Assembly: GCA_902386535.1 (NCBI GenBank)
Contig: CABMJK010000010.1
Span: 1-33,692 of the forward strand
Reading direction: 5' to 3'
DNA length: 33,692 nucleotides
Source: Candidatus Burarchaeum australiense
Lineage (GTDB): Archaea; Micrarchaeota; Micrarchaeia; Burarchaeales; Burarchaeaceae
Part shown: piece by piece, positions 688 through 22,021 of the stretch
Numbering within the stretch: the stretch's first letter is position 1
Layout of the letters: the number at the start of each line of letters is the position of its first letter
The notes under the pieces: generated by a model
Database searches by the model: none
What the model was told of the DNA's origin: nothing
The model's input: only the letters and a program-made list of their open reading frames with translations
Made by a program: the position numbers and the translations under genes

Positions 688-2430
688 TTACTGGTCTTCA
701 GTCTTGACGAGCTTGCTGAGCGATTTCGCATACTCGAGCCGCTCCTCGCTGAAGCTGGAGCCGCCGCCCTCCCTTCTCCTCGCATAAAGCAGGTAGGCAA
801 AAATGAGCGCAATGAGGAGGATTCCCACGAGCGCGGCATCCGTGGGCTTGACGGTTATGGCTGCCGCGGCAAGCTCTCCCGCAGTCGGCGCAATGACTAT
901 GGGCAGCCGCGCGCTCACCTGCCCGCTATCCGTGTACAGTAGGAACTGCAGCAGGTGCGAGGAGGCTGGCGCATCCTGCGGCACGCCCACTTCAAACCTC
1001 GCAGTGAACGTGTCACGGGGCTGCAGCATGGTTGTAAGATAGCTGGGGTCCACGGTAAAGCCCGCGGGCACGCTGAGCGTCATCGTTGCCGGCATCGGCT
1101 CATCGCCCACGTAGAGCACGGTGGCCACCACGTTGCCCGTCGAGCCGGGCTTCATTTCGCTCGCGCTCACGTCAATTATCTTGACCACGTCCGAAAGGTC
1201 GACCTTCTGGGTCACCACCAACTCGGACGCATACCAGTTCACATAGGGCGTATATTCGGTCAAAACCCCGTCCATCGTGTAAGTCACGGTGACCTGTTCA
1301 TGTGAAAGCAGTTCCGGGAACTCCCACAGCACGTATTTTTTGCCGTCAAGGCTCTTCTCCTCGCCGGGCCGGTCTAGGAACTGCACCTTGCTGTTTTGAA
1401 GGCCTGCGGGAAGCTGGTCCGTGAAGAGCGTGGTCTTCAGGTCCTTGGAGCTCGGGTTTCTCACAGTCACGGTCACAGTTGTCTTCCCGCTCGTGCGGTC
1501 CAGTTCAACGGTCCTCAGCACAACAGGCTGCGTCCGGCTCGGGCTCACTCCCTTTATGCGGACGACCATGAAGTCCGAGCTCACGCCATCCGCGTTCTCG
1601 GCATCCAGCCTAATCAGGTAGTCGCCCTCCTGCGCGCCTTCAGGCACGCTGATGGCCAAATCCACGTTGCGCGTCTCTCCTGGCATCAGCGTGGTTTCGG
1701 GCGCGCTCACCTGCAGCCAGTTCTGGTCCACTCCGGTAGCCACCAGCTTCACGGTCTCATTCCCACTCCTCCTGTTTATGAACGTCACTTCCTGCAGGGC
1801 CGACTGGCCGGCAACCATTTCCTTGAGCACCGGGAACTTCAGGAAATCCACCGGCCCGCCCGCCTTGGGCGCGAGCGGCGGCAATTTTTCAATGGGCACG
1901 GGCTTTATCTCGCCCCAGGGATTGAAGTACGGCGGGCCGGGCTGGTTCCCGCCTCCCCCGTTCACAATGGCAAAGCTGAAGCTCAATTCGTTGCTCACCG
2001 TGTTCGTGCCGTTCAGCGGGTCGTAAGTCACGTTGCCCCTTGCCGTGTAGGGGCCGACGGGCAATCCGTCCGTGGCCCAGGGTTTCTGCTGCGCAATCTG
2101 CTGGTTCGGCACTATGGGCGCGGGGCCGAAAGCCACCGTGTCAACGAGCGCGTTTGCGGCATTGAAAATGTAGACCGTGGCAGTCGCCGTGGTCGTGGCC
2201 GTGCCGGTATTCTCGAAAACAACCGAGACGTCCGTGGTCGAGCCGCTGGTTATCTCCGTCGAGGGCAGCGAGAGGTTGTCGAGCGTTATGGAGGCATAGA
2301 GCTCGCTGTTGATGAAGTATGCCTGCGAGCCTGCGAAGTCCGGGTTAGCTAAGGGCGCGAGGAGCAGGAGAAGTAAAAGCGTCCAGACAGCTTTCACCCA
2401 TATCCTCCCCATCCAAGCATCATGCCGCAC
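688..2430 (-). CDS. Exported membrane-anchored protein with CARDB/NEW3-like Ig-fold repeats (S-layer or surface protein)
   Basis: 580 aa ORF; N-terminal hydrophobic signal, repeated beta-rich segments, C-terminal TM helix (AALVGILLIALIFAYLLYARRR) with basic tail. Overlaps the upstream gene by 11 bp. Confidence 0.85.
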   Translation of the reverse strand: MRHDAWMGRIWVKAVWTLLLLLLLAPLANPDFAGSQAYFINSELYASITLDNLSLPSTEITSGSTTDVSVVFENTGTATTTATATVYIFNAANALVDTVAFGPAPIVPNQQIAQQKPWATDGLPVGPYTARGNVTYDPLNGTNTVSNELSFSFAIVNGGGGNQPGPPYFNPWGEIKPVPIEKLPPLAPKAGGPVDFLKFPVLKEMVAGQSALQEVTFINRRSGNETVKLVATGVDQNWLQVSAPETTLMPGETRNVDLAISVPEGAQEGDYLIRLDAENADGVSSDFMVVRIKGVSPSRTQPVVLRTVELDRTSGKTTVTVTVRNPSSKDLKTTLFTDQLPAGLQNSKVQFLDRPGEEKSLDGKKYVLWEFPELLSHEQVTVTYTMDGVLTEYTPYVNWYASELVVTQKVDLSDVVKIIDVSASEMKPGSTGNVVATVLYVGDEPMPATMTLSVPAGFTVDPSYLTTMLQPRDTFTARFEVGVPQDAPASSHLLQFLLYTDSGQVSARLPIVIAPTAGELAAAAITVKPTDAALVGILLIALIFAYLLYARRREGGGSSFSEERLEYAKSLSKLVKTEDQ

Positions 2431-3310
2431 CCTTTACCTTCACAACGACAGTTATTTGGAAATATGGCCGGTCGACGCCGGATGCGAACGAGCTCGTGAC
2501 GTAGTTCGTCCGATACTTCGCGAACCATTCCTTCTCCACGTCCGAGGGCGGCCCGCCGGCGTTCACGCCTATCACGTAGTTGCCGGGCTTGGCATCTGGC
2601 TTCACGTTCACGTGCACCAGCACCTTCTGGGTCCAGTTCGCGTCGAATATCGGGAATGCGGGGCCGAGCAGCAGGTAAGGCGGGTCAAACGTGACGTCAA
2701 AGTATTTGCTGGCCTCGCTGGAATTCTGAATGACCTTGAAGCCGGTTTCCTCATAGGGAACCGTGGTCTCGGCCGGATACGCGGTTTCCAGTCCCACGCC
2801 CTGATACGTCTTCACGAGCCAGCTGGAGTATATGTACGTGGTGGCGGTGAAGTTGGTGCCCTGGTCTGTCACCACGAGCATGTCGCTCGGGTAGGCGCCC
2901 AGGCCCCACGCGCCCCACCTGTCCATCGGCGGATTCTGCATCATCTGCACGCCCGCGCCCTCGAAGTTCGGATACCATTCCGGCTGCTTCCAGTACTCGG
3001 GGCCGAAGTCCTGCATGTCCATCTTTCCGTACTGCACGAGCACCATGGTCTCGTAGAAATCCGTCGGGAAAGGCGGGAGGTTCTTGTAAACGACTGCAGG
3101 CAGATAGTCTGGCCTGTTGCTGAGCTTCGCAGCCCTCTGCTGGTCTGCCTCTATTATCAACTCAATCGGGGTCTTGTTGGCCGTCTGGTTGGATGAAACG
3201 TTCGGAGTCGTTGCCCCGCCCGGCGCCGGCTGTGCCGGACCCTGCTGCGCGCAGCCCAGGAATAGCAGCCCCACCACTATCAAAACCGCCGCAATGCCAA
3301 AAAATCTCAT
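2420..3310 (-). CDS. Putative lipoprotein, paralog of 4141..5052
   Basis: 296 aa; lipobox-like N-terminus MRFFGIAAVLIVVGLLFLGCAQQ; shares YWKQPEWYPNF..GV..M.NPP.DRWGAWG..YP and SSWLV blocks with the 4141..5052 product. Confidence 0.85.
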   Translation of the reverse strand: MRFFGIAAVLIVVGLLFLGCAQQGPAQPAPGGATTPNVSSNQTANKTPIELIIEADQQRAAKLSNRPDYLPAVVYKNLPPFPTDFYETMVLVQYGKMDMQDFGPEYWKQPEWYPNFEGAGVQMMQNPPMDRWGAWGLGAYPSDMLVVTDQGTNFTATTYIYSSWLVKTYQGVGLETAYPAETTVPYEETGFKVIQNSSEASKYFDVTFDPPYLLLGPAFPIFDANWTQKVLVHVNVKPDAKPGNYVIGVNAGGPPSDVEKEWFAKYRTNYVTSSFASGVDRPYFQITVVVKVKGAA

Positions 3311-3361: not shown

Positions 3362-4015
3362 TTAGCCGCCGTCAGTGGCCTGGCTGGCGTGCGTCAGGTT
3401 CCTGGTGTATGCGCCAGTGCCCACCGAGCCGCCCGTGGCAGGGAAGTTGTCGTAGGTTGCCCACATGAACAGGTTCCTTACCTGGCTGGGCTGAAGGTCT
3501 GCCAAGAAAGTGCTGAACGCGGTCGTCACGTTCTTGCAGGTCGTGCCCGGGTCGCCGTCAGGCGCTGCGGTAAGGCCGACGCCAGTTCCAAGCGTGCAGT
3601 CCCCGGTGTTATACGAGCCCGTGCCGTTCGAGGCCGTGACGTTCACGCCCGGCGGCATGGTAGTTCCGTTGAACGCGAGCGTTATGTTGATCGGTATCGT
3701 GCCCGTATTCGTGTATTGGAATATCGGCGTGGCGGCAGTCTGCTGGTTCGCGCAGCAGGGCGCGACGCTGGCGTTTATGCCGTAATAGCTCTTGTTGCTC
3801 GCGTTGAACTCTATGTCCGCCGTATAAATCGCGGCAATGGCCGGAGTCGCGTTGGTCGCGGTAACCGCGGCCTGGCCCGGCAGCGTGACGGTGAACGAGA
3901 TGGTTCTCTTGATGATGAAGAACACGCGTGTATTCACGAAGTCCGCCATCGCCACGGTTGAAAGCACGAGAATTATTCCAACGAAAATTACAAAACCCAG
4001 CATCCCAATTTTCAT
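3362..4015 (-). CDS. Secreted protein, near-duplicate of the C-terminal module of the 6367..9726 protein
   Basis: 217 aa; hydrophobic N-terminus MKIGMLGFVIFVGIILVLSTVAMA; VNASVAPCCANQQTAATPIFQYTNTG-like and NGTTMPPGVNVTASNGTGSYNTGDC blocks shared with the 1119 aa protein. Confidence 0.82.
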   Translation of the reverse strand: MKIGMLGFVIFVGIILVLSTVAMADFVNTRVFFIIKRTISFTVTLPGQAAVTATNATPAIAAIYTADIEFNASNKSYYGINASVAPCCANQQTAATPIFQYTNTGTIPINITLAFNGTTMPPGVNVTASNGTGSYNTGDCTLGTGVGLTAAPDGDPGTTCKNVTTAFSTFLADLQPSQVRNLFMWATYDNFPATGGSVGTGAYTRNLTHASQATDGG

Positions 4016-4140
4016 TCAATGCACCCCTTGCGAATTGTCTAGTCGCCGATTAATCGCAAGGTGATTTGATTTGGCCGAGTATATAAGTCTTTCTACCTCG
4101 GAGCTTGGCTCGCAACTTCCGGCCCGCGCAGCCGCACTCT

Positions 4141-5052
4141 TCAAGTGCGACCGCCGCTCCCAGCCCGCTCCCGCACGCTCACGTGAATCACGTAATAGGG
4201 CCGGTCAGGTGCGCTCGCAAACGAGGATGAGGAAATGTAGGTGCGGCCTTCGGCATCCCATTTTTCCACCGCCTCCTGCGAGGGCTGGCCCAGGTCGAAG
4301 TAAATCGCATAGTCGCCGGGCGGCGCGTCCTCCGCGACATTGCCCCTTACGACAACCTTCTGCGCACAGCTCTCCTCGAAAACCGGCCAGGAGGCTCCGA
4401 GCAGGAACTCGCGCGGCTCGATTGAAAGCGAGAAATACCTTGCCGCATCCTCCCCGCTCCTCACGCCGCCTTCAAAGGCCGCGCGCGGCTCAAGCGAGAC
4501 CGCCTGCCGGTTGACTACGAGCCAGCTCGAGGCGAAGAAATTGGCCGAAGTGAACGCCTCGCCAGGCCTTGCGCTCACGAAATGCTCTGCCGGATAGCCG
4601 CGCATGCCCGAAGCGCCCCACCGATCCCCAGGCGGGTTGCCCATCGCTTCCACCCCGCTGAGCCAGAAGCCGGGATAGAACTCGGGCTGCTTCCAGTAGC
4701 TCGCATCCAGGCCGGCCAGCTCGCGCTCGCTGAAATAGTTGGTGTTCACAAGGAGCGCAATCTCGTGCAGGTCGGGCGGGAAGGCTGGCAGCGCGGAGAA
4801 AAGCGACGGCGAGAGGTTGTGCGCCCTTCCGCCTCCCATCTTTTCGGGCCCGAGCATGAGCTCCAGCCTTTCGTCCGGTATTTTCCGATAGCCCGATGCA
4901 TCCGACCATTTTACGTCAACAGCATCAATGCCCTGCGCACCCGCTTCTTTCTTCTCACCAACGCATCCGGAAAACGATGCTAAAAGCCAGGTGAAAAATA
5001 GTGCGGCAAGTGCAATCACGAGAAATCTCCGTCCCTTCCCTTTTCCTTCCAT
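4141..5052 (-). CDS. Putative lipoprotein, paralog of 2420..3310
   Basis: 303 aa; MEGKGKGRRFLVIALAALFFTWLLASFSGCVGEKK lipobox; YWKQPEFYPGF, NPPGDRWGASG, SSWLV, DRPYYVIHV conserved with the paralog. Confidence 0.85.
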   Translation of the reverse strand: MEGKGKGRRFLVIALAALFFTWLLASFSGCVGEKKEAGAQGIDAVDVKWSDASGYRKIPDERLELMLGPEKMGGGRAHNLSPSLFSALPAFPPDLHEIALLVNTNYFSERELAGLDASYWKQPEFYPGFWLSGVEAMGNPPGDRWGASGMRGYPAEHFVSARPGEAFTSANFFASSWLVVNRQAVSLEPRAAFEGGVRSGEDAARYFSLSIEPREFLLGASWPVFEESCAQKVVVRGNVAEDAPPGDYAIYFDLGQPSQEAVEKWDAEGRTYISSSSFASAPDRPYYVIHVSVRERAGSGGRT

Positions 5053-5109
5053 GGCCTCGGTTTCCCAGAGAATCTTTTTTAAGCTGAAGCCGATAATCTC
5101 GCGGGCAAT

Positions 5110-6366
5110 ATGGTTTCCAAAGGCCAGGCAAGGCTTCCGCTCGTGCTCGCGCTCATCGTGCTCGCAGGCCTCGCGCTCTCGCAGCAGGAAGGCGCGCCTC
5201 CCTCTCTCTCCTGGTTTTCATCAGAAACAGGCGCAAGCTGGGACGGCTCGGCCTTTCACGCGGACAATTCGCTCATCGCGACCAGCGTGCCTGCAGGCAA
5301 TGTCAGCATTGCGATAGCCGGCTGTCCGGCCGAATGGGTCTGCCTTGCCGACCCGGCTTCCATCGACCACGATGGCACGGATAAGGCTTACCCCGTAACT
5401 CTGCTCATAATCGCGCCCCAGAACTCAAGCGGCACGCTTGCGGTTTCTGCCTCCGACTCCACGGGCGTGAGTTCTGGCGCATGGGTCATCGCGGTTTCTC
5501 CTCCATCAGGGGCTCAGCCGCCAGGACAGCCTCATGCGAACGAAACGCAAGAGCAGCCGGCTGAGCAGCCACCAGTGCAGCCCGCAAACGAGACCCTACC
5601 TCCTGCCGCAAACGAGACGCAGGAGCAGCCGCCCGGGCAATCCGGCTCGCCCGGAAAGCCCACCCCGCAGATTCCCGAAGGATTCACTAAAGTATATGCG
5701 TGCGGCGAGCTGGCGCGCCATTCCGTGCTCGTGAACGACATAAGCACGGACGGCAACTGCTTCACCATTGTAGACGACAATTCCGTGCTCGACTGCGCAG
5801 GGCATTCAATCACGCAAACAAAGCAGGGGGAGAGTTACGGGATTGCCGTGAACGGCGCAGGCCACACGTCCATTAGGAACTGCGTGATAATCAATTTTAG
5901 CGGAGGCATAATTCTGCGCTCTTCCGCAAAGAGCTCCATAACGGACACCATCGTGAAGTCCGAGGCCGGCTATGGCATAGTCGCGGATTCTTCTCCCGAC
6001 CTGAAGCTCTCGAACGTAGTTGCAGACATTCCATGGTCCGAGGCAATAATGATTTCCGCGGAGTCCTTCGATGCGCAGCTCCTCAACGTGACCGCGAGCT
6101 CCTATGACGGCGCGGCGCTCTACGTTGACTCGCCGGGCATCAGCATAATCGGCTCGTCATTCTCCACCAGCGCGTTCGAGGGCGCCATCAATTTCCAGAT
6201 ACTCGGCGAGTATGGACCATCCTATGCGAACAAGATGATTTCATCGCACGCCTCCTCGCTCATCGCAGGCGGCCAAGGCTCAATAATTCTTGTCGTGAAC
6301 AGCACGCTTCCGCACTACATCGAGCGCGGAGGCGTGGTGCGGTTTGCACCTCCCGGGGATGGTTAG
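5110..6366 (+). CDS. Secreted right-handed parallel beta-helix (NosD-like) protein with Pro/Glu-rich linker
   Basis: 418 aa; signal peptide; ANETQEQP-type linker; YACGEL..NDISTDGNCFTIVDDNSVLDCAGHSI cap motif followed by helix-repeat segments. Stop TAG directly abuts the next ATG. Confidence 0.82.
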   Translation: MVSKGQARLPLVLALIVLAGLALSQQEGAPPSLSWFSSETGASWDGSAFHADNSLIATSVPAGNVSIAIAGCPAEWVCLADPASIDHDGTDKAYPVTLLIIAPQNSSGTLAVSASDSTGVSSGAWVIAVSPPSGAQPPGQPHANETQEQPAEQPPVQPANETLPPAANETQEQPPGQSGSPGKPTPQIPEGFTKVYACGELARHSVLVNDISTDGNCFTIVDDNSVLDCAGHSITQTKQGESYGIAVNGAGHTSIRNCVIINFSGGIILRSSAKSSITDTIVKSEAGYGIVADSSPDLKLSNVVADIPWSEAIMISAESFDAQLLNVTASSYDGAALYVDSPGISIIGSSFSTSAFEGAINFQILGEYGPSYANKMISSHASSLIAGGQGSIILVVNSTLPHYIERGGVVRFAPPGDG

Positions 6367-9300
6367 ATGAGGCCGCCCATTCGAATTGTATTGCTCGCGT
6401 TCGTTGCCCTTCTTTCCCTAGCGCCGCTCTCCCAAGCGGTGAACTTTTTCTACAACGACAGCTACCCCATCGTGAGCACGAACGGCATCACGAACATTGA
6501 CCTGTTGAATCTCACCTTCGCAGCCGACTCGAAATGCTATCTGCTCACTTCCACTGCCGATGCCACTGGCACTGTCAGTGTCATCATAAACAGCACTTTT
6601 GCCATAGGCAACCTAATCGACCGTCCGCTGAATTCGAGCGTGCGCATCGCCCACGAGATAGCTGGAAGCCAGGAATTGGCTGCGGCAGCCAAGGTGGCCT
6701 GCTTCGGAGCAGCCACCACTTCCACGCAAATCGCGTTCAACTCTATGACTGCAGGCACGGCCGTTTCAGAAGGCCATGGAAGGCTCACCGCACTTGAACT
6801 CACGTCCGCCAATTATCTCTGGAACTTCACTATAGCCAGTAACATCGCAGCGGCATGGACTTACCTTGCCAACGTCACCTTCACCGTGCCTGCTGGAGGC
6901 GGGAATTACACGATAATCGCGGTTGGCAGCACCAATGCCTCCACCGCAAGCACCAGACACGTTATAAGGCTGGATATAGATGGCGTGGAGGTGGCCATGG
7001 AGAATGCGACCAACAACGTGGCCAGCACCGGCACCTCCTTCTTCGCCCATCTCACCCCCACCCTGGCTGCAGGCTCCCATTCGGCGCGGGTGAGCGCATT
7101 CTGCGGCACAATAAACCGCTGCAGCGTTGGGAATCTCAGCGTGATTGTAGTGAACCTCACGGGCATGAGTCTCGTACACATGACCAACAACACGGCAGGG
7201 CCGCTAATCAATTCTCTTGACAACACGTTCACGGACGTGGTCAACCTTACTTTTGTTCCCTTGGCCCCGACCACTTATTTCCTGATTGCAAGCGCAATAC
7301 TGAACTCGACCAGCACGACGTCGAGCGACAACTTCGAGGCTGCGCTCGTGATAGACGGCGAAATAGGCAAAACGCAGAACAATCTGACCTTCCAGGCCAA
7401 CGTGGTGCCGGACCTCCAATCCTTCGGCGTCGCAGGTAATTTCACGTTCACGGGCGGCGTCACCCACACGGTGCAAATAATGTTCAGGAGCCCATCAAAG
7501 GACACGGCTTGGATAGACAACGCCAGCATAACCCTGATAGCCGTCAAGTCGGAATGCGGCACCCTTGTTGCCAACACGTTCCTTACGGAGGACATTACCT
7601 CCACGGGCACCTGCTACACCATAGGCGCGGACAGCATCACGCTCGACTGCAACGGGCATACGCTGACCGGAGCAGGCACGGGCAATGGGGTTTTCAACAA
7701 CGGCTACGACAACGTCGTCATAAAGAACTGCATAATCAACAGCTTCGCGAAGGGCATCTACTTCCAAAGCGGCTCGAACAGCGCCATTTTCCTGAACAAC
7801 ACTTTCAATAACAACGTGGACGGCATCTACGTGGACCACAGCGACTTGACAAGCGCATGGAACAACACGATTGCCTCCGCGACCAACACCGGAATAACCC
7901 TTAACGTTTCGCAGTGGAGCGCAGTGGTGAATACGACCGTGCGCGCCGCGCGCAGCCGCGCCATCCAGCTCTACCAGGTCAACAATTCCTTCGTCTACAA
8001 TGCGACTCTCGGCACTAACTTATTCATTCCGGCCACGGGCATTGCAGGAATAAATGTGGAAGAATGCAATGGCACGACAATAGCGAACATCTCGCTGTCC
8101 TCCATGTCGACCGGCATTGGCATAAACATCACGCTTTCAAACGCGACAAGAATCGAGAACTCGAGCATAGACAATCTTTTCGTATATGGCATCCAGATGG
8201 TCCGCTCGAACAACTCGTTCGTTTACAACTCATCGCTTACGAACATGTCCTTTGACTTTCCGCCAACCAGCACTCCTGGCGCAGGAATATCCCTTTCCGG
8301 CAGCTACTTCAACCTCTTCCAGAACCTAACAATCTGGAACAATTCCGGTTCCGGCATGTCTTTCAGTTCCTCGGACAATAACAGCGTGGAGAACACCAGC
8401 TTCAGGAGGAACGGGCTTGCCTCCGCCACCTATTCGATAAACCTGGTGAACTCAAACAACAACACCTTCTGGAACACGACCAGCGAGGACCAACTGAGCA
8501 ACCCGGACAGTTGCGGCGTGCTTTTGAACGGCGGGACCAACGACAACCGCTTCCTCAACTTCACTGCAAGGAATAACTCAAGAGGCTTTATGTTTACCAG
8601 TGCGGGCAGGAACCTGTTCGTGAATGCCAGCGCGCTGAACAACACCTACGGCGTCTATATCATAAAAAGCTCCAGCGACAATTATTTCATCAACTCTACC
8701 TTCGTGACTTCGGGCGTGGCGAGCGTCTTTGTCACAGCTGCCGGCGCCCCTGCCTCCGTCGCGACCAACAACACCTTCCTGAACTGCACTTTCGGAGTGT
8801 ACAACGTCAGCCTGCCATCGAGCCCGGGAGGAACCAATTATATTCGCGTGCAATGGTATTCGCGCATACGGGTGCTGGATTACGGGGGCGCGGGACTGAC
8901 TGGCGCGTTCTTCAACGTTTCCAACGTGAGCGCCCTGATTGCCACCGACCTTGCAACCGGCAACCAGATAATAAACCTCACGGACGGGGCAATTGGCGAC
9001 GGCTACTCGAACTGGACTATAGTGGAGGAGGGTGTGATACGCTCCAACATCCTCGGTAGCCAGGTTTTCTTTACAGAAAACAACCACACGTTCAACGCGA
9101 GCGCAACCGGTTATGCCACGAACTGGACGAACGTGACCGTGAACGAGAGCGTGGCCACCGTGGTTTACCTCCCGAGCGCCGCAGTCGACGTTTCCTTCAC
9201 GCTCACCCTGCCAGGCCAGGCCGTAATCAATGCCTCGAATTACACGCCGCCCCTGAACGTCAACTACACGGCTGATATCGAGTTCAATATCACGAACAAG

Positions 9301-9726
9301 AGCATGTGGGGCGTGAATGCCAGCGTCGCGCCCTGCTGCGCGAACCAGCAGACTGCCGCCACGCCGATATTCCAATACACGAATACGGGCGGCGCGGCAA
9401 TCAACATATCTTTATGGTTCAACGGCACGACAATGCCGCCGGGCGTGAACGTCACGGCCTCGAACGGCACGGGCTCGTATAACACCGGGGACTGCAAACT
9501 AGGCGCGTTTGCCGACCGTGATATGACTCCCGACGGCGACCCGGGCACGACCTGCAAGAACGTGACGACCACGGCATCAAGATTCATATCGGACCTGCAG
9601 CCAGGCCAGAGCAGGAACCTGTTCCTGTGGGCGACGTTCGACAACTTCCCTGCCACGCCCGGCTCGGTGGGAACCGGGGACTACACCAGAAACGTGACGC
9701 ACAGCAGCGAAAATGCAGCTCCTTAG
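6367..9726 (+). CDS. Large secreted beta-helix surface protein with duplicated C-terminal module
   Basis: 1119 aa; signal peptide; ECGTLVANTFLTEDITSTGTCYTIGADSITLDCNGHTLTG cap; many N-X-S/T sequons; C-terminal ~180 aa matches the 3362..4015 protein. Confidence 0.86.
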   Translation: MRPPIRIVLLAFVALLSLAPLSQAVNFFYNDSYPIVSTNGITNIDLLNLTFAADSKCYLLTSTADATGTVSVIINSTFAIGNLIDRPLNSSVRIAHEIAGSQELAAAAKVACFGAATTSTQIAFNSMTAGTAVSEGHGRLTALELTSANYLWNFTIASNIAAAWTYLANVTFTVPAGGGNYTIIAVGSTNASTASTRHVIRLDIDGVEVAMENATNNVASTGTSFFAHLTPTLAAGSHSARVSAFCGTINRCSVGNLSVIVVNLTGMSLVHMTNNTAGPLINSLDNTFTDVVNLTFVPLAPTTYFLIASAILNSTSTTSSDNFEAALVIDGEIGKTQNNLTFQANVVPDLQSFGVAGNFTFTGGVTHTVQIMFRSPSKDTAWIDNASITLIAVKSECGTLVANTFLTEDITSTGTCYTIGADSITLDCNGHTLTGAGTGNGVFNNGYDNVVIKNCIINSFAKGIYFQSGSNSAIFLNNTFNNNVDGIYVDHSDLTSAWNNTIASATNTGITLNVSQWSAVVNTTVRAARSRAIQLYQVNNSFVYNATLGTNLFIPATGIAGINVEECNGTTIANISLSSMSTGIGINITLSNATRIENSSIDNLFVYGIQMVRSNNSFVYNSSLTNMSFDFPPTSTPGAGISLSGSYFNLFQNLTIWNNSGSGMSFSSSDNNSVENTSFRRNGLASATYSINLVNSNNNTFWNTTSEDQLSNPDSCGVLLNGGTNDNRFLNFTARNNSRGFMFTSAGRNLFVNASALNNTYGVYIIKSSSDNYFINSTFVTSGVASVFVTAAGAPASVATNNTFLNCTFGVYNVSLPSSPGGTNYIRVQWYSRIRVLDYGGAGLTGAFFNVSNVSALIATDLATGNQIINLTDGAIGDGYSNWTIVEEGVIRSNILGSQVFFTENNHTFNASATGYATNWTNVTVNESVATVVYLPSAAVDVSFTLTLPGQAVINASNYTPPLNVNYTADIEFNITNKSMWGVNASVAPCCANQQTAATPIFQYTNTGGAAINISLWFNGTTMPPGVNVTASNGTGSYNTGDCKLGAFADRDMTPDGDPGTTCKNVTTTASRFISDLQPGQSRNLFLWATFDNFPATPGSVGTGDYTRNVTHSSENAAP

Positions 9727-13331: not shown

Positions 13332-13424
13332 ATGCCAGAACAAAACGACGTAGAAAAGGATAAAAAACCATTCTCCGAATTGTTTGTGTTGGTGACAGAA
13401 TATGGAGTTAACGGAGTTTATTGA
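13332..13424 (+). CDS. Possible 30-aa small ORF overlapping the start of the AlbA_2 gene
   Basis: ATG preceded by GGTG; MPEQNDVEKDKKPFSELFVLVTEYGVNGVY*; overlaps the 13402 start in another frame. Confidence 0.25.
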   Translation: MPEQNDVEKDKKPFSELFVLVTEYGVNGVY

Positions 13425-14802
13425 ACTATCCAAACAAGAAACTTTTTTTGTAGAGAAAAAGAACGGAATAGGCGATGCTTTAGGAAGACTGATGGCTGCA
13501 TATGGGACTTCAGGAACAGGTAAAGCATTAGTTGGCATTGAAGACTCAGGAACTCTTTCCGGTCTTTTTTATAATGACAATTCAAAAAAAGATTTAAATG
13601 TCCTTTTAGAAAAATGTCTTCCCAAACCAACGGTGAATGTTGAAAGTATTCCTTTTGAAAAAGGAAAAGTCGTATTGTGCATTACAATACACGAATCAAA
13701 AATAAAGCCGACCTACTTCAACGGAACAGCGTATTGGCGAGACAACGGCGAAACCAAAGTATGTTCAAATGAACAAGTTTTGCATTTTCAAATTGAATCT
13801 GGGCGACTAAAGTTCGATGCTTTACCTTGTAAAACTTCAGAAAGAATCGGCTTGCTTCAGGACATAGATACAAATACCGTTTCTGAATTCCTTGATGCTG
13901 CTAAAATTAAACGAAATCGGACTTTAAGTAATAGCGTTCGAACTGAAGACGTTCTGTCCAATCTAAGTTTATATAATAAAAACGACAACACAATTAATAA
14001 TGCCGGAATTTTATTATTTGGAAAGAAGCCACAAGAATTTTGTCCTCAAGCGAGCATCACGCTCTCCGTTTTCAATAGCGACAGTGTGTCAACAGAACCT
14101 TTCATAAGACAGCAATTAAACGGCAATATATTTTACTTAATTGAAAATAGCGTTAATTTAATCAAACAATATGCGCCACCGGTCTCAAGAATTGAAGGAC
14201 TAAAACGAATTGATGTCTATCCCTACCCTTACGAAGCGCTCAGGGAGTTGATAATCAATGCAATTGCCCATAGAGATTATTTTACTCCATCTGAAATAAC
14301 GATTCGGCTTTTTAAAAATCGAATTGAAATTACAAATCCGGGCGGAGTGCCAAAGGAAATTGATTTTGAAAAATTAATTAATGGTGAAAATAATCTGTCC
14401 GTTAGGCGTAACCAACTAATTTCTGATGTCTTAGATTTCGCAGGATACATGGATAAAGCTGGATATGGCTTCATCAAGATCTTAACTGCTCTTCACTCTC
14501 AGGGACTTCCAAAACCAGAATTTCCAAAAGTTCAAGATAGTTTCAAAGCAATAATCTACGCAGGCAATACGACTTCGGGACTAAGTACAACGAAGGTTTT
14601 GGATTATCCCAAGGGCGTGGTTGTTATTTTAAAAACAATTATTGAAGCCGGAACTAACGGAATTTCTAACCAAGAGTTGGTGAGCAAGAGTGGTTATACT
14701 GCGGTGTATGTCTCAAATATCACTAAAATTCTTGAAGACGAAAAACAAATTTTCAAAAAAAGGCGAGGAAATCGGATTCATTTATTCGTAAAATCTTCTT
14801 AA
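13402..14802 (+). CDS. AlbA_2 (Schlafen-type) DNA-binding / HATPase_c_4 transcriptional regulator-like protein
   Basis: 466 aa; N-terminal ETFFVEKKNGIGDALGRLMAAYGTSGTGKALVGIEDSG; YPYEALRELIINAIAHRDYF..EITIRLFKNRIEITNPGGVP; C-terminal winged-helix-like segment. Markedly AT-rich. Confidence 0.85.
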   Translation: MELTEFIELSKQETFFVEKKNGIGDALGRLMAAYGTSGTGKALVGIEDSGTLSGLFYNDNSKKDLNVLLEKCLPKPTVNVESIPFEKGKVVLCITIHESKIKPTYFNGTAYWRDNGETKVCSNEQVLHFQIESGRLKFDALPCKTSERIGLLQDIDTNTVSEFLDAAKIKRNRTLSNSVRTEDVLSNLSLYNKNDNTINNAGILLFGKKPQEFCPQASITLSVFNSDSVSTEPFIRQQLNGNIFYLIENSVNLIKQYAPPVSRIEGLKRIDVYPYPYEALRELIINAIAHRDYFTPSEITIRLFKNRIEITNPGGVPKEIDFEKLINGENNLSVRRNQLISDVLDFAGYMDKAGYGFIKILTALHSQGLPKPEFPKVQDSFKAIIYAGNTTSGLSTTKVLDYPKGVVVILKTIIEAGTNGISNQELVSKSGYTAVYVSNITKILEDEKQIFKKRRGNRIHLFVKSS

Positions 14803-15157: not shown

Positions 15158-16273
15158 TCAGGCCTTCTCAACAACAAGCCTTACTTCCCATTCCTCTATC
15201 TTCCACATCTTGCCCTCTGCTTTTCCGCCAGTCTTTCCTTCTTTCTTCTTGGCCTCTTCCTTGAGCTCGAGCTTTTTCGCGTTCACCGACTTGGCGAGCG
15301 CCTGCTTCTGCCCCTCGACCAGCGCCAGGAACTCCGCGGGCGCGTAAATGGAAACCTTCACCTCGTCCTTCTCGAGCAAATCAATCTCCTTCCTCGTGGC
15401 CTGAATCCTGCGCGTGAGCTCGCGCGCCATGGCCTCGGCGTAGAGCGCGGCATCCAGCTTCGGGTTGAACCAGGCCTTGCCCTCCTCGAAATCCGCGCTC
15501 ACGTGGCCTTCTTTTGCCTTGCCCATGCCCACTGCCTTCGCGTTCGCGAGCTGCGCAATCACCTGCCCGAGCCTGGCGACCGCGGCCGCCACCGCGCTCG
15601 ACTCGCTCTCGACTATTACCTCGGCAATGGGCCACCGGAGCTTCACGCCCGCGCCCTGCCGCGCATTTGCGGATGCATTGACTATCTGGTCCGCAATCTT
15701 CATCTGGCCCTCGAGCAGCGTGTCTATCGCCTTCTCGTCATAGGCCGGCCAGCCCAGCAGGCTCGCGCTCGCCTCCTTTTCGCGCTGCCTGAAGAAGCGC
15801 TGGTAGATGTCCTCGCACACGAAAGGCGTGATGGGCGTCATGAGCTTCATGAGCGCGAGCATGGATCTGTAGAGAACTTCGTTCACCGCGTCCGCATCCT
15901 CGCCCGCGCCCATCCTCGCCTTCGCTATCTTCAGGTAGAATCGGCTCAGGTCATCGACCACGAACCTGCGCAGCGCGTTCACCGCGTCGTGGATGCGGTA
16001 CTCGTCGAAGGCGAGCGTGGCCTCCTTGGTCACGCTGTTCAGCCGCGAGAGCAGCCACGCATCCTCAAGTCTGTAGGAAACTTTTCCCTTTGCCTTCGGC
16101 TCGGAATAGAAGCGCTCCAGGTAGATGCACAAATTATAGAGTATTCCGACCGTGCCCGCGGCCTCCTTCATCTCGCTCCAGTTGAAGCGCAAATCCTCCC
16201 ACACGCTCGAGCTCAGGCTCCACAGCCTGAACGCGTCGGCCCCGTGCTTGTCGAGCATCTCCTCCAGCGGCAC
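15158..16273 (-). CDS. ileS: IleRS C-terminal fragment (anticodon-binding domain)
   Basis: Possible GTG at 16273, immediately after the broken KMSKS segment; VPLEEMLDKHGADAFRLWSLSSSVWEDLRFNW..., same frame as the upstream fragment. Confidence 0.75.
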   Translation of the reverse strand: MPLEEMLDKHGADAFRLWSLSSSVWEDLRFNWSEMKEAAGTVGILYNLCIYLERFYSEPKAKGKVSYRLEDAWLLSRLNSVTKEATLAFDEYRIHDAVNALRRFVVDDLSRFYLKIAKARMGAGEDADAVNEVLYRSMLALMKLMTPITPFVCEDIYQRFFRQREKEASASLLGWPAYDEKAIDTLLEGQMKIADQIVNASANARQGAGVKLRWPIAEVIVESESSAVAAAVARLGQVIAQLANAKAVGMGKAKEGHVSADFEEGKAWFNPKLDAALYAEAMARELTRRIQATRKEIDLLEKDEVKVSIYAPAEFLALVEGQKQALAKSVNAKKLELKEEAKKKEGKTGGKAEGKMWKIEEWEVRLVVEKA

Positions 16274-16453
16274 GAAGTTGCTTAGCTACTTCCTCATCTT
16301 CTCGCCCTTCTCCTCCATGAAGAAGCCGTTCATTAGAATGGATTTGTAGGGAATCTCGTCCTTGAGAACCACGCCCGAGCCGAGCAGCGAGTAGAACCAG
16401 CCCCGCACCTGGTCCTTGCCCTCGGTTATGAAATCGCAGGGATACCAGAATTT

Positions 16454-18049
16454 TTACTCCTCGGGCGTGAGCGAGGCCCAGATGGCATTGCCCGAGTCGA
16501 ACCACACGTCGAGCACGTCGGGCGTGCGCCTCATCTCGCCGCCGCACTTGCACGGGAAAGTCACCTTGTCCATGTCCGGCTTGTGCAAGTCCGGATACTG
16601 CCCCGGCAGCTCGCCGGCCGAGCCCACGACTTTCATCTCCTTGCAGCCCTCCTTCTGGCAAGTCCAGATGGGCAAAGGTATCCCCCAGTAGCGCTGGCGC
16701 GAGATGCACCAGTCGGGCGCGTTGCCCACGAAATCGCGGAACCAGGTGCGCGCGTGCTCGGGCTGCCACCTTATCTTGTCGATTTCCTTGAGCATCTCTT
16801 CCTTCACTTTCGAGACCGCGATGAACCACTGGTCCGTAGTGATATAGATGAGCGGAGTCTTGCAGCGCCAGCAGTGCGCGTACCTGTGCCTTATGGTGCC
16901 CGCGTGGATTAGCGTGCCCCTCTCGCGCAGATACTCGATTATCTCGTGGTTGGTCTTCTTCACGTTCTTGCCCGCGTACTCGCCGGCCTCGGCAGTGTAA
17001 TTGCCGTTCGCGCCCACGGGGCAGAAAATTTCCAGGCCATAGCGCTTGCCCACTATGAAGTCCTGCGGGCCGTGCCCTGGCGCGCAGTGCACGAGGCCCG
17101 TGCCGTCCTCGAGCGTCACGAACTCGTCGCTGAGCACCACCTTGTGCACAATCTCCTGCTGCTTCGGCACCTTCTCGAAAAGCGGGTGCACGTACTCGAG
17201 GCCCTCGAGCTTCTTGCCCGAAACCTCGCCCAGAATCACCGGGCTAAGGCCGAGCTCGTGCGTCACCGCCATCAGCGCGTCCAATCTTTCCTTCGCCACA
17301 ATCCAAATTTCATCTCCAACTTTCGCCTTCACGTACTTGAACTCCGGGTGCACCATGACGGCCATGTTCGCGACCAGCGTCCACGGCGTGGTCGTCCAGA
17401 TTATCAAAAATTCTTTTTCTTTTGAATCTTTTCCCTTCACCTCGAACTTCACGTAAATAGACGTGTCATCCACGTCCTCGTACTCGAGCTCGTAGTTGGC
17501 CATCGTGGTCTCGCAGCGCGGGCAGAGCGGCAGCACGTAGATGCCGCGGTGCAGCAGGCCCTTCTCGTGCGCCTTCTTGATGGTGGCCCAGGAGCGCTCG
17601 ATGAAACCCCGCTTATATGTAATATAGGGGTCCTCCCAGTCCATCCACACCCCGCACCTCTGGAACTGGCCGCCCATCACGCCGATATATTGGGTGGCAA
17701 ACTGCTTGCACTTCTCTATGAATTTCTCGACCCCGATCTTCTCCTCAATCTCCTTCTTGTTCCTGAGCTTGAGCTCCTGCTCCACTTTCACCTCTATCGG
17801 AAGGCCGTGCGTGTCGTAGCCCGGCTTTGCCCTCAGGTTCCTGCCCCTTGCCCTCCAATATCGGCACATGGCGTCCTTTATGCACTTGTTCCATGCCGTG
17901 CCCGGATGTATCTGCCCTGTGGCATAGGGCGGGCCGTCGCAGAAATAGAGCTTCTCGCCCTTGGCGTTCCTCTCCTTCACCTTTTCATACACTTTCTCGC
18001 TTTGCCAGAGCTGCAGAATCCTCTTCTCGGTTTCCATCGCGCTGTACAT
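16454..18049 (-). CDS. ileS: IleRS N-terminal fragment (Rossmann catalytic fold plus editing domain)
   Basis: ORF ends with TAA after DSGNAIWASLTPEE; start at 18049 has upstream GGTG (the track extends to 18067). Confidence 0.85.
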   Translation of the reverse strand: MYSAMETEKRILQLWQSEKVYEKVKERNAKGEKLYFCDGPPYATGQIHPGTAWNKCIKDAMCRYWRARGRNLRAKPGYDTHGLPIEVKVEQELKLRNKKEIEEKIGVEKFIEKCKQFATQYIGVMGGQFQRCGVWMDWEDPYITYKRGFIERSWATIKKAHEKGLLHRGIYVLPLCPRCETTMANYELEYEDVDDTSIYVKFEVKGKDSKEKEFLIIWTTTPWTLVANMAVMVHPEFKYVKAKVGDEIWIVAKERLDALMAVTHELGLSPVILGEVSGKKLEGLEYVHPLFEKVPKQQEIVHKVVLSDEFVTLEDGTGLVHCAPGHGPQDFIVGKRYGLEIFCPVGANGNYTAEAGEYAGKNVKKTNHEIIEYLRERGTLIHAGTIRHRYAHCWRCKTPLIYITTDQWFIAVSKVKEEMLKEIDKIRWQPEHARTWFRDFVGNAPDWCISRQRYWGIPLPIWTCQKEGCKEMKVVGSAGELPGQYPDLHKPDMDKVTFPCKCGGEMRRTPDVLDVWFDSGNAIWASLTPEE

Positions 18050-18090
18050 GCCACACACCAAAATCAATCAAGCTTGACCTTAAACCATTC

Positions 18091-18576: not shown

Positions 18577-19794
18577 ATGCGCTTTTCGCCAATCGCATTT
18601 CTCGCACTGGCGCTAGTTTGCCTTCTTCCCGCCTTCGCACTGGCCCTGGACCTGCCAGAGCCGCATTACACCACTAGCACGGTGGACGTTCTCTACCAGC
18701 ACCAGCTTCCTCCCGTCACGCTTGCCGAAGTGACCGAAGTCCACGGCTGCGCCCTCGAGCCCGCGTACCTCAACATCTCGCCGTCGGACAACAAGATGAC
18801 CGTGCGAGTAACTTACCTCTATGCCAATGGCACCGAGTCCGTGGTTTTCGAGAAGGACTACGACCCCCTGGCTTTCCCGAGCGGCATCAGCTACACCTAT
18901 GCCATTCCAAGAGAAGGCGAATATGCGCTTACGATACTCTACTATAACCAGCTTAACAAGCGCCGCACTTTCATCGTGGACTGCACCTACAACGCCAGTG
19001 CCTACGTGCCCCAGCCCCCCGCAGTCCCGCCTTCGACTCCGCCGGCCCAGCCGCCCGCGCAGCCTCCTTCCACCAACGTCTCCGGCAATGCAACGGTGCC
19101 TCCGGTCCAGCCGCCGGCAACAAACGTCTCCGGCAACGCGTCGCTGCCGCCCGGCCAGACCTTCGAGGACGAGACCGCGGCCTTCAATGCAATAGGCAAT
19201 GCCGCCTACACCATAGATGTGACCCGCAATGAAGGTGCCGACGTAACCCCTGCCCAGCAAAAGCTCGACCAGGCTCGCTCCGCCTATGCTTCCGAGAATT
19301 ACAAGGAGGCCCTTTCGCTTGCCCAGGAAGCCACGGCGCTTGCCGAGAAGGCCCGGATGCCCGTGAACCAAACCTCGAACGTGAGCGGCGGAGGCTTCCA
19401 GCTCCCGTCAATCCAGCTGCCCTCCATCGACCTGTCCGGAATTTCGGCAGGCCTGTCGGGGATCGTCTCCGCCCTCCTGTCAAACATTCTGCTGATAGTC
19501 GGCGTAATCGTGGTTGCCGCCGCAGCCTTCTTCCTCCTGCAGCGCAAAAAGAGGGAAAAGGAGTCGCAGCCGCCGCCGGAGAAGCCCATGTCCGGGGAGC
19601 AGCTTCCGTCCTCGCGCAGGTCCCGCGAGGAGGTTGATGCCGAGCTCGGGTCAGAGGAGAAGGCTGGCGAGGAGGAAGCGCCGTCTTCAGAGGGAGGCGA
19701 AGCGCCCCAGGGCGGCGAGGAGCAAAAAGAAGGCGGGGAAAGCTATGGCCGGCCGGAGTCTGAAGACAACGCTCCGCAAACCCATGCGCCGTAA
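18577..19794 (+). CDS. Surface protein: signal peptide, beta domain, Pro-rich linker, helical juxtamembrane module, TM, acidic cytoplasmic tail
   Basis: Start ATG 18577 with GGTGG upstream and TAATATTTAA element; MRFSPIAFLALALVCLLPAFALA; TFEDETAAFNAIGNAAYTIDVTRNEGADVTPAQQKLDQARSAYASENYKEALSLAQEATALAEKA; TM LLIVGVIVVAAAAFFLLQRKKREKE. The track ORF begins artefactually at 17827. Confidence 0.82.
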   Translation: MRFSPIAFLALALVCLLPAFALALDLPEPHYTTSTVDVLYQHQLPPVTLAEVTEVHGCALEPAYLNISPSDNKMTVRVTYLYANGTESVVFEKDYDPLAFPSGISYTYAIPREGEYALTILYYNQLNKRRTFIVDCTYNASAYVPQPPAVPPSTPPAQPPAQPPSTNVSGNATVPPVQPPATNVSGNASLPPGQTFEDETAAFNAIGNAAYTIDVTRNEGADVTPAQQKLDQARSAYASENYKEALSLAQEATALAEKARMPVNQTSNVSGGGFQLPSIQLPSIDLSGISAGLSGIVSALLSNILLIVGVIVVAAAAFFLLQRKKREKESQPPPEKPMSGEQLPSSRRSREEVDAELGSEEKAGEEEAPSSEGGEAPQGGEEQKEGGESYGRPESEDNAPQTHAP

Positions 19795-20002: not shown

Positions 20003-22021
20003 GTGAAAGGTAAGCTGTTCGTTCTGACGTTAGTTGCGATGATGTTCCTGTCGAGCATCGCAGCCGCATGGGACCCGGTGATGAACCAATCGGTCATCTT
20101 CGGCTCAAATCCCACGAAAGTGCTTCTTAACTCGTCCTCCAACTCTTCCATCGTGTTCAACGTTACTGCCATAAACCAGTCCAACCTGATTTCGCTGTTC
20201 GTAAACACTACGAGCTGCAAACTTTACGTCTCGCTGCCCGGCACCGACTACATGGTCGGCCCGGTCAACACCACCAACTCGAGCGGATTGGCATTAACCG
20301 CGAATCAAATAGGTTTCTCATTCATAATAGGCAATGCCACCGTGGGTGCGCTTGCCGAGAGGGGCAGGGAGAACGCCTACAACGTGACCGTCAACTGCAC
20401 GTTCACCAACGGCACCTTCACCTGGAACTCCACGAACTCAACCAACCTGACGATTGACGTAACTGCGCCGACGGTTGCCCTGCGCTACCCGGCGGACAAG
20501 ACGTGGAACAGCTCATGGGGTCCGGTGACTTTCTCATGGACTCATGTCGACACGGGCACCAACGTTTCGAGGTGCAACCTCTATCTGGCATCACAGAACT
20601 CCTCGCAGTCCACACCCAGCTCAGCCGGAGTGGGCAACGTTTCGATACTTTGGGCGCTGAACACAACCAACGCCACAAACGTTTCGACCGGCACCAGCAA
20701 CCTGATGTACTACCAGGGCGGCACACTCGCCTTGCCTTACGTGACTGCGGATGCGAACGTAAGCTGGAACGTCCAGTGCTTTGACTTCGCGGGCAACGGC
20801 GCCTTTGCAACGAGCAACAGGAGCGTTGTCATCGACAACAGTTCGCCCGTGTATGTCAAGCTGGTTTCACCGACCAACAACACCGCGGTTGTCTGCGGCC
20901 ACTCAATTGGCTTCGGCTTCAGCGTCTATGATGACTGGGGCCTGGCAAGCTGCTCGGTAGCGTTGAACTACTCGGGCATTGCGGCGGGTGACATGGATGC
21001 AGACCACTCTCCTGGCGGCATTGGCTTCAAGACGAATGCCACGGCCACGTACTCAACGAACACAGTCGGTCCCAACGGCAACTGGCTGGAGACGACCTTC
21101 TACAACGTGTCTGCCGGCATTACCAACTACATAAGCTTCGCAATCCCGAACGTCAACTTCTCATCGGTCAACTGGACCGTGCGATGCACTGACCATGCGG
21201 GCCACAACACGACCAACACGACCTGGTTCCTGGTGACCCTGACCAATGATACGGGAGCAAACCGTGGCACCGGTGGCGCCGGGTCTAACCCAGCGCCCAG
21301 CGTGGACGTGTCAACTGGGTGCGTTGGCGAGTCGACGACAATTTCCGTGTCGGGCTTGTACAACCCCGTGAACATCAACGTGATGAAAGTGGACGTGGCG
21401 CCCTCGCAGAGCGTCTATACCACCGTCCTGAACTACGACGGCTCGGTGAACTTCGTCGCGAGCGCGAAGGGCTCCTACTCTGCCTATCTTTCAGGCACCG
21501 GGCTGACCCCAATGTCAGTGCCCTTCTCTGTCACGTGCGACTCTAGCCCCGTGACCACGCCGACGCCAACAACTCCTCCAGAGACAACCACTCCGCCGGC
21601 CCAGCCGCCGGCACAACCCGAGCAGCCACCCGTGCAGCCTCCGGCCCAGCCTCCTGCAGTAACGCAGGCTGACGCCCAGAGCGCGTACAACGCTGCCAAT
21701 GCGGCCATAGTCGCTGCGGCTGACGCAAACAAGGACGTGTCAGCTGCCCAGAGCAAACTCGCAGAAGCCCTGTCTGCCCTGAATGCGGGCAACTACGAGA
21801 ATGCGGTGACTCTGTCGAATGCGGCGGCCTCGTTGGCTGAGAGCGCGAGTGCGCTGGCACCGACCACTCCAACCACGCCTGCACCGACCACTCCAACCAC
21901 GCCTGCACCGACCACTCCAACACCCGCTCCGAGCGGCACAAACTGGCTGCTCTGGATAGTGGTGATAGTGGTGATCGTGGCAGCGGCCTACTACCTCATG
22001 ACCAAGAGGAAGAAGTATTGA
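20003..22021 (+). CDS. Large surface protein: Ig-like repeats, Pro/Thr linker, helical juxtamembrane module, C-terminal TM
   Basis: GTG start after GAGGTGGTGG; VKGKLFVLTLVAMMFLSSIAAAW signal; DVTAPTVALRYPADKTWNSSWGPVTFSW Ig-like repeats; QADAQSAYNAANAAIVAAADANKDVSAAQSKLAEALSALNAGNYENAVTLSNAAASLAESA; TM plus KRKKY. The track ORF begins artefactually at 19514. Confidence 0.85.
   Translation: MKGKLFVLTLVAMMFLSSIAAAWDPVMNQSVIFGSNPTKVLLNSSSNSSIVFNVTAINQSNLISLFVNTTSCKLYVSLPGTDYMVGPVNTTNSSGLALTANQIGFSFIIGNATVGALAERGRENAYNVTVNCTFTNGTFTWNSTNSTNLTIDVTAPTVALRYPADKTWNSSWGPVTFSWTHVDTGTNVSRCNLYLASQNSSQSTPSSAGVGNVSILWALNTTNATNVSTGTSNLMYYQGGTLALPYVTADANVSWNVQCFDFAGNGAFATSNRSVVIDNSSPVYVKLVSPTNNTAVVCGHSIGFGFSVYDDWGLASCSVALNYSGIAAGDMDADHSPGGIGFKTNATATYSTNTVGPNGNWLETTFYNVSAGITNYISFAIPNVNFSSVNWTVRCTDHAGHNTTNTTWFLVTLTNDTGANRGTGGAGSNPAPSVDVSTGCVGESTTISVSGLYNPVNINVMKVDVAPSQSVYTTVLNYDGSVNFVASAKGSYSAYLSGTGLTPMSVPFSVTCDSSPVTTPTPTTPPETTTPPAQPPAQPEQPPVQPPAQPPAVTQADAQSAYNAANAAIVAAADANKDVSAAQSKLAEALSALNAGNYENAVTLSNAAASLAESASALAPTTPTTPAPTTPTTPAPTTPTPAPSGTNWLLWIVVIVVIVAAAYYLMTKRKKY
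21857..21920 (+). repeat. 24-bp tandem repeat (GCACCGACCACTCCAACCACGCCT), about 2.7 copies, encoding APTTPTTP
   Basis: Two exact units at 21857-21880 and 21881-21904, then a partial third unit. Confidence 0.85.

Follow-up and report, generated by a model that had tools for sequence, protein, structure and literature searches.

Genes A and B and their surroundings

The window, 33,692 bp in length, is an entire contig of a 1.2-Mb, 68-contig Candidatus Burarchaeum genome (G000; contamination estimate 5.4%, GC near 58%), and Burarchaeum is placed in Candidatus Micrarchaeia. Gene A (3362-4015, minus strand) is an open reading frame for a 217-aa secreted protein composed of a signal peptide, a short N-terminal strand and a domain that is shared with gene B. 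The predicted signal peptide (residues 1-25; 3941-4015, minus strand) was read from the sequence and forms a helix over residues 3-21 in a structural model, the N-terminal extension (3899-3940, minus strand) carries a strand pattern conserved in A proteins and is a putative donor strand, and the shared domain (3365-3898, minus strand) was delimited by A-B alignment and a domain tree. Gene B (6367-9726, plus strand), recognised as an open reading frame with Pfam matches, encodes a 1119-aa surface protein with a beta-helix/NosD body (residues 437-733; 7675-8565, plus strand; PF13229 with E = 1.5e-22, and PF05048), ending in the shared domain of about 178 aa (9193-9723, plus strand).

Both genes belong to a conserved cluster. 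Comparison of neighbours added to it a lipoprotein-like gene (2420-3310, minus strand) and a gene for a NEW3/Ig-like protein of about 580 aa with a C-terminal hydrophobic segment (688-2430, minus strand; PF10633). A second lipoprotein-like paralogue (4141-5052, minus strand) was seen only in the Burarchaeum family in the same comparison and served as a negative control for conversion, and a smaller NosD/beta-helix protein (5110-6366, plus strand) was found upstream of B by Pfam scan. Gene A was recovered in 11 relatives. In relatives from the order and class, B, variable at the front and ending in the domain, adjoins A, followed by the lipoprotein-like gene and the NEW3 protein of about 580 aa, and in most of them the cluster also includes a MinD/ParA-like ATPase (cluster loci L017, L019, L020, L021, L022, L023, L024, L025, L068, L069 and L070). 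The N-termini of B differ among relatives, with beta-helix, CBM96 or Ig/FG-GAP modules ahead of the domain. Genes for a type II/IV secretion ATPase and T2SSF lie near the cluster in some genomes (L017, L022, L024).

In the relatives from outside the Burarchaeum family, A and B point the same way. Within it, B is inverted relative to A and the second lipoprotein-like gene lies between them; this holds for G000, for the same-genus metagenome-assembled genome Candidatus Burarchaeum sp. E19_metabat.bin.22 (G001), and for G002, which is from another genus of the family. Burarchaeum was sampled by G000 and G001 only, each a fragmented assembly. A search of genome contigs with the genus alignment gave a match in the G001 genome only, and a single-sequence scan of genome contigs with the B domain gave no match. 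Two G001 contigs (L018 1-2693; L017 16424-18765) break off within gene B, probably where its beta-helix is repetitive; A, the second lipoprotein gene and the front of B are nonetheless contiguous despite this break.

Three further observations concern other parts of the window. The isoleucyl-tRNA synthetase (15158-18067, minus strand) is present as two open reading frames in different frames and corresponds to one 964-aa open reading frame in G001, which probably reflects an assembly frameshift or a broken gene. A 466-aa open reading frame (13402-14802, plus strand), of AlbA_2/Schlafen type by eye, occupies a low-GC patch (37-43% vs about 58-60% around it) and was possibly acquired from elsewhere. 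Proline-rich PPAQPPAQP linkers (19036-19145 and 21590-21618) give rise to short direct repeats between a further two proteins predicted to be at the surface.

An earlier note on this DNA had pointed to exact reverse-complement matches of 72, 64 and 39 bp. These are indeed present and bounded by mismatches: block 1 (72 bp) pairs 3701-3772 in A with 9319-9390 in B, block 2 (64 bp) pairs 3595-3658 with 9433-9496, and block 3 (39 bp) pairs 3521-3559 with 9532-9570, the A copies being on the minus and the B copies on the plus strand. The blocks are the best-matching stretches of an inverted similarity that extends further, with arms at 3383-3898 and 9193-9708, both coding, of which the left comprises most of gene A and the right the C-terminal end of gene B. 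A search of the genome found no third copy of the module. The A and B domains align over 178 codons with no gap, at 72% amino acid and 75% nucleotide identity, and codons for the same residue are identical at 100 of 129 positions, where codon usage predicts 62. That the tracts between the blocks are rich in mismatches was likewise borne out (3659-3700 and 9391-9432 are just 60% identical), as was the extension of identity to synonymous sites, although synonymous sites are perfectly identical in the blocks only: same-residue codons are identical at 58/58 positions inside the three blocks vs 42/71 outside (Fisher p = 2e-9, a test biased by the choice of the blocks for their identity, so that the orthologue comparison and permutation described below are the fairer tests).

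Predicted fold and possible function

The domain matched no family in Pfam or NCBIfam, and a profile search of the PDB with it returned chance matches only, with no sequence match to a solved structure; by these three resources, it does not belong to a known pilin family. The mature A protein of G004, a relative outside the Burarchaeum family, was modelled with confidence as a beta-sandwich (pLDDT 87.7, pTM 0.82), and its closest folds were mostly chaperone-usher pilins (Csu, the FimF/FimG complex, CupE and FimA) along with the fibre protein TLP-1a, all of them weak matches (best E = 0.066, TM ≤ 0.50, none at E < 0.001). The model of the G000 A protein with its signal peptide was only fair (pLDDT 75) and its matches were weak, the second of them being the Pyrobaculum bundling pilus (7ueg; E = 0.1). 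Directly after the signal peptide, a TxVxFxV-like strand is conserved in 12 A proteins and was not seen in B; to judge from its sequence, it is the putative counterpart of what would be expected of a donor strand.

From the models and the strand pattern, we infer that A is probably a pilin-like filament subunit. In B proteins, the domain lies behind the front modules, the arrangement of a tip adhesin such as FimH, and by analogy B may be a large surface protein of adhesin type with the same subunit domain at its end.

A serious possibility, though not the one we expect, is that the pair and its conversion are real and that there is no filament, the two being S-layer or cell-wall-associated proteins that share a domain for anchoring or assembly. 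No machinery that would assemble such a filament was identified, nor were any known filament assembly proteins, the fold matches are weak, and many N-glycosylation motifs can be read from the sequences, as in S-layer proteins. Set against this, pilin folds predominate among the better matches, and A, apart from its signal peptide and a strand, amounts to little more than a single domain copy, which is what a subunit would look like.

Domain replacement and later exchange of tracts

In a tree of 21 domains (11 from A and 10 from B), the A and B domains formed two groups, with support of only 91/91. The sole exception was provided by the two Burarchaeum B domains, which fell within the A group and were joined to the Burarchaeum A domains (100/99), and the B domain of G002 grouped with those of G003 and G004 (100/99), G003 being a second relative from outside the family used in the tree and outgroup comparison. 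An approximately unbiased (AU) test against all B domains as a single clade gave p = 2.65e-6, or 2.3e-4 with the three identical blocks masked; with this masking, the branching amongst the four Burarchaeum domains was supported at 60/71 only. The flank of B agrees between G000 and G002 at 53 of 88 residues over the last 90 or so residues up to an SFTL motif, and at 39 of 137 beyond it, which places the breakpoint at this motif. In G002, an old B-type domain follows this same flank, and the gene order is inverted in the same way.

Since the Burarchaeum B domains lie in the A clade and the B of G002 has the old domain behind the same flank, these sequence comparisons demonstrate that, in the ancestor of Burarchaeum, an A-type domain overwrote the one at the C-terminus of B, whose body and place were kept. 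The inversion of B preceded this replacement, as G002 is inverted and yet not replaced. The B-type domain of G002 (L068 5639-10679) contains cysteine and the A protein of that genome is very divergent, on a long branch, so that in this genome there is a strong difference between the subunit and adhesin domains. Prior to the replacement, A and B are estimated to have been only about 30% alike, which is a poor substrate for homologous conversion, and the first step was therefore perhaps an illegitimate fusion; entry of the first copy by fusion at a short SFT motif is as likely as by classical conversion.

Comparison with the sister species (A0 and B0 denoting the proteins of G000, A1 and B1 those of G001) exposed a second layer in this history. 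In the blocks, A0 and B0 are 100% identical where orthologues share 64-85%, and same-residue codons are identical at 58/58 positions for A-B vs 26/37 for orthologues. In the two tracts between the blocks, identity is 60% and 42% for A0-B0 vs 69% and 53% for A0-A1. The longest run of identical variable sites spans 21 sites for A0-B0, where permutation gives 8.1 on average (p = 0.0004), and 11 sites for A0-B1 (permutation p = 0.0008). The A0-B1 run agrees with block 1, in which the A protein of G000 reads PCC-ANQQ-AATPIF like the B protein of G001, whereas the A proteins of G001, G003 and G004 retain the older A type, so the transfer that left B-type residues in A ran from B to A. A few sites suggest the reverse direction, A to B, for block 2. 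Additionally, an LLATGG insert is carried by A and B of G001 and missing from A and B of G000 as well as from the outgroup A domains, pointing to transfer in the G001 lineage also. The A orthologues of G000 and G001 are just 62-65% or so identical overall. The control pair, the lipoprotein paralogues beside A in direct orientation, gave no sign of exchange, with orthologues at 62-69% identity and paralogues at 35-38%.

Near-identity is thus found in bounded tracts where paralogues are closer than orthologues, against an older gene tree; moreover, the B flank and the gene order are unchanged and block 1 has a direction, as befits non-reciprocal transfer. The gene conversion proposed in the earlier note is strongly supported by this mosaic, in which synonymous divergence is not uniform inside and outside the blocks, and the exchange of short tracts between A and B since the replacement is well documented in these comparisons. 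The history is larger than had been proposed, with the short tracts following replacement of a whole domain. The note's alternative wording of a recent duplication does not apply to the pair, as both genes are found class-wide, and holds only in the sense that the domain of B was replaced by that of A in the ancestor of the genus.

Could each Burarchaeum species instead have undergone its own recent domain duplication, rather than one replacement followed by conversion? Paralogues within G000 (67-72% at the amino acid level) are closer than orthologues (56-62%), as such duplications would produce. We consider this very improbable, however, because residues specific to B (YTPPLNVNYTADIEFN; 22/30 vs 14/30 for A-A there) are common to the B proteins of the two species and the A copies likewise share A-specific ends, which indicates that the A and B lineages predate the species split. 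A uniform duplication also fits neither the patchwork of tracts nor the permutation p value.

The earlier note further held that recombination between the copies could flip the interval and swap the ends of the two proteins. Were the copies an inversion switch, crossing-over would flip about 3.8-9.3 kb; inverted arms with 72 bp of exact identity could support it, and the domains are in register, thus swapped proteins would remain in frame. Both orientations were sought in the assemblies, and a single one was found in the three family genomes, with the same order and orientation despite their long divergence, so nothing in them suggests that the interval has flipped since they diverged. Additionally, among the neighbours covered by the Pfam scans, none was recognisable as a recombinase gene, and the 3' ends retain several orthologue-like residues outside the tracts. 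An inversion switch is therefore very improbable. Constraint at the nucleotide level, imposed by an overlapping antisense gene or an RNA element, has almost no credibility as a source of the identity, since the antisense frame, which runs open through the blocks of A and of B, is not maintained in relatives and is broken by a stop inside block 1 in the A gene of G001, which excludes dual coding, an RNA element is rejected by the lack of any Rfam match, and orthologues differ at silent sites in the very same blocks.

Proposed history and comparison with known systems

Altogether, these observations are probably best explained by gene conversion with a filament subunit and its adhesin as the partners, as replacement followed by tracts and with no flipping. 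Domain replacement, mosaic tracts and a constant orientation are established at the level of the sequences. B would have been inverted relative to A first, and an A-type domain would then have been copied over the C-terminal domain of B in the Burarchaeum ancestor. Thereafter, we infer, gene conversion moved short tracts from one inverted copy to the other with no accompanying crossover, probably from A to B as well as from B to A, and in G000 and G001 alike; the domain would polymerise by donor-strand exchange, and the homogenisation would have been kept because the subunit domains match.

Only tentatively would we extend this to an undescribed filament system of Micrarchaeia, in which a donor-strand subunit A would be topped by a large adhesin B whose binding modules would be exchangeable, the genes lying together with those of the lipoprotein, the NEW3 protein and the MinD-like ATPase, and in which conversion in Burarchaeum would keep the subunit domain of the adhesin matched to the filament.

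Recombination between related surface genes is already known. What is new is that, in Micrarchaeia, a stand-alone domain gene undergoes conversion with the part of a large, inverted surface-protein gene that encodes its end domain, and a literature search found no report of domain-scale gene conversion in an uncultivated small-genome archaeon. The locus documents such conversion, its direction and relative timing included. It also brings out a conserved, unnamed cluster of Micrarchaeia surface proteins with a layout resembling a pilus subunit and tip adhesin, and thereby a concrete protein pair that bears on how such cells attach to other cells or to surfaces.

In Haloferax volcanii, gene conversion equalises genome copies (PMC11276520). 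As in that example of archaeal conversion and concerted evolution, transfer here is non-reciprocal and copies in one cell become alike; the exchange differs in taking place between genes rather than chromosome copies, and in linking a stand-alone domain gene with the last domain of a far larger protein, the two being inverted relative to each other, after replacement of the whole domain. Segmental transfer into a surface-protein gene also recalls vls antigen variation in Borrelia (PMC11499132). Here, however, there is no array of silent cassettes, both genes are complete, only two copies exist, and the tracts homogenise rather than diversify.

With regard to the proteins, a putative subunit with an N-terminal strand and an adhesin-like protein with a C-terminal domain of the same fold are reminiscent of FimA and FimH of the type 1 pilus, unlike which the present pair is archaeal, has no recognised chaperone or usher and has no significant sequence match to solved structures. 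Archaeal threads (Saci_0406; PMC9715654) and bundling pili/TasA (PMC9674648) are built from secreted beta-sandwich subunits with an N-terminal strand, and threads and TasA use a donor strand after the signal peptide (PMC9715654, PMC9674648). A would resemble these as a secreted beta-sandwich, according to the model, with a putative N-terminal strand, the fold matches being weak (E = 0.1). The partner of the thread subunit is a small putative cap protein (PMC9715654), whereas that of A is the large adhesin-like B.
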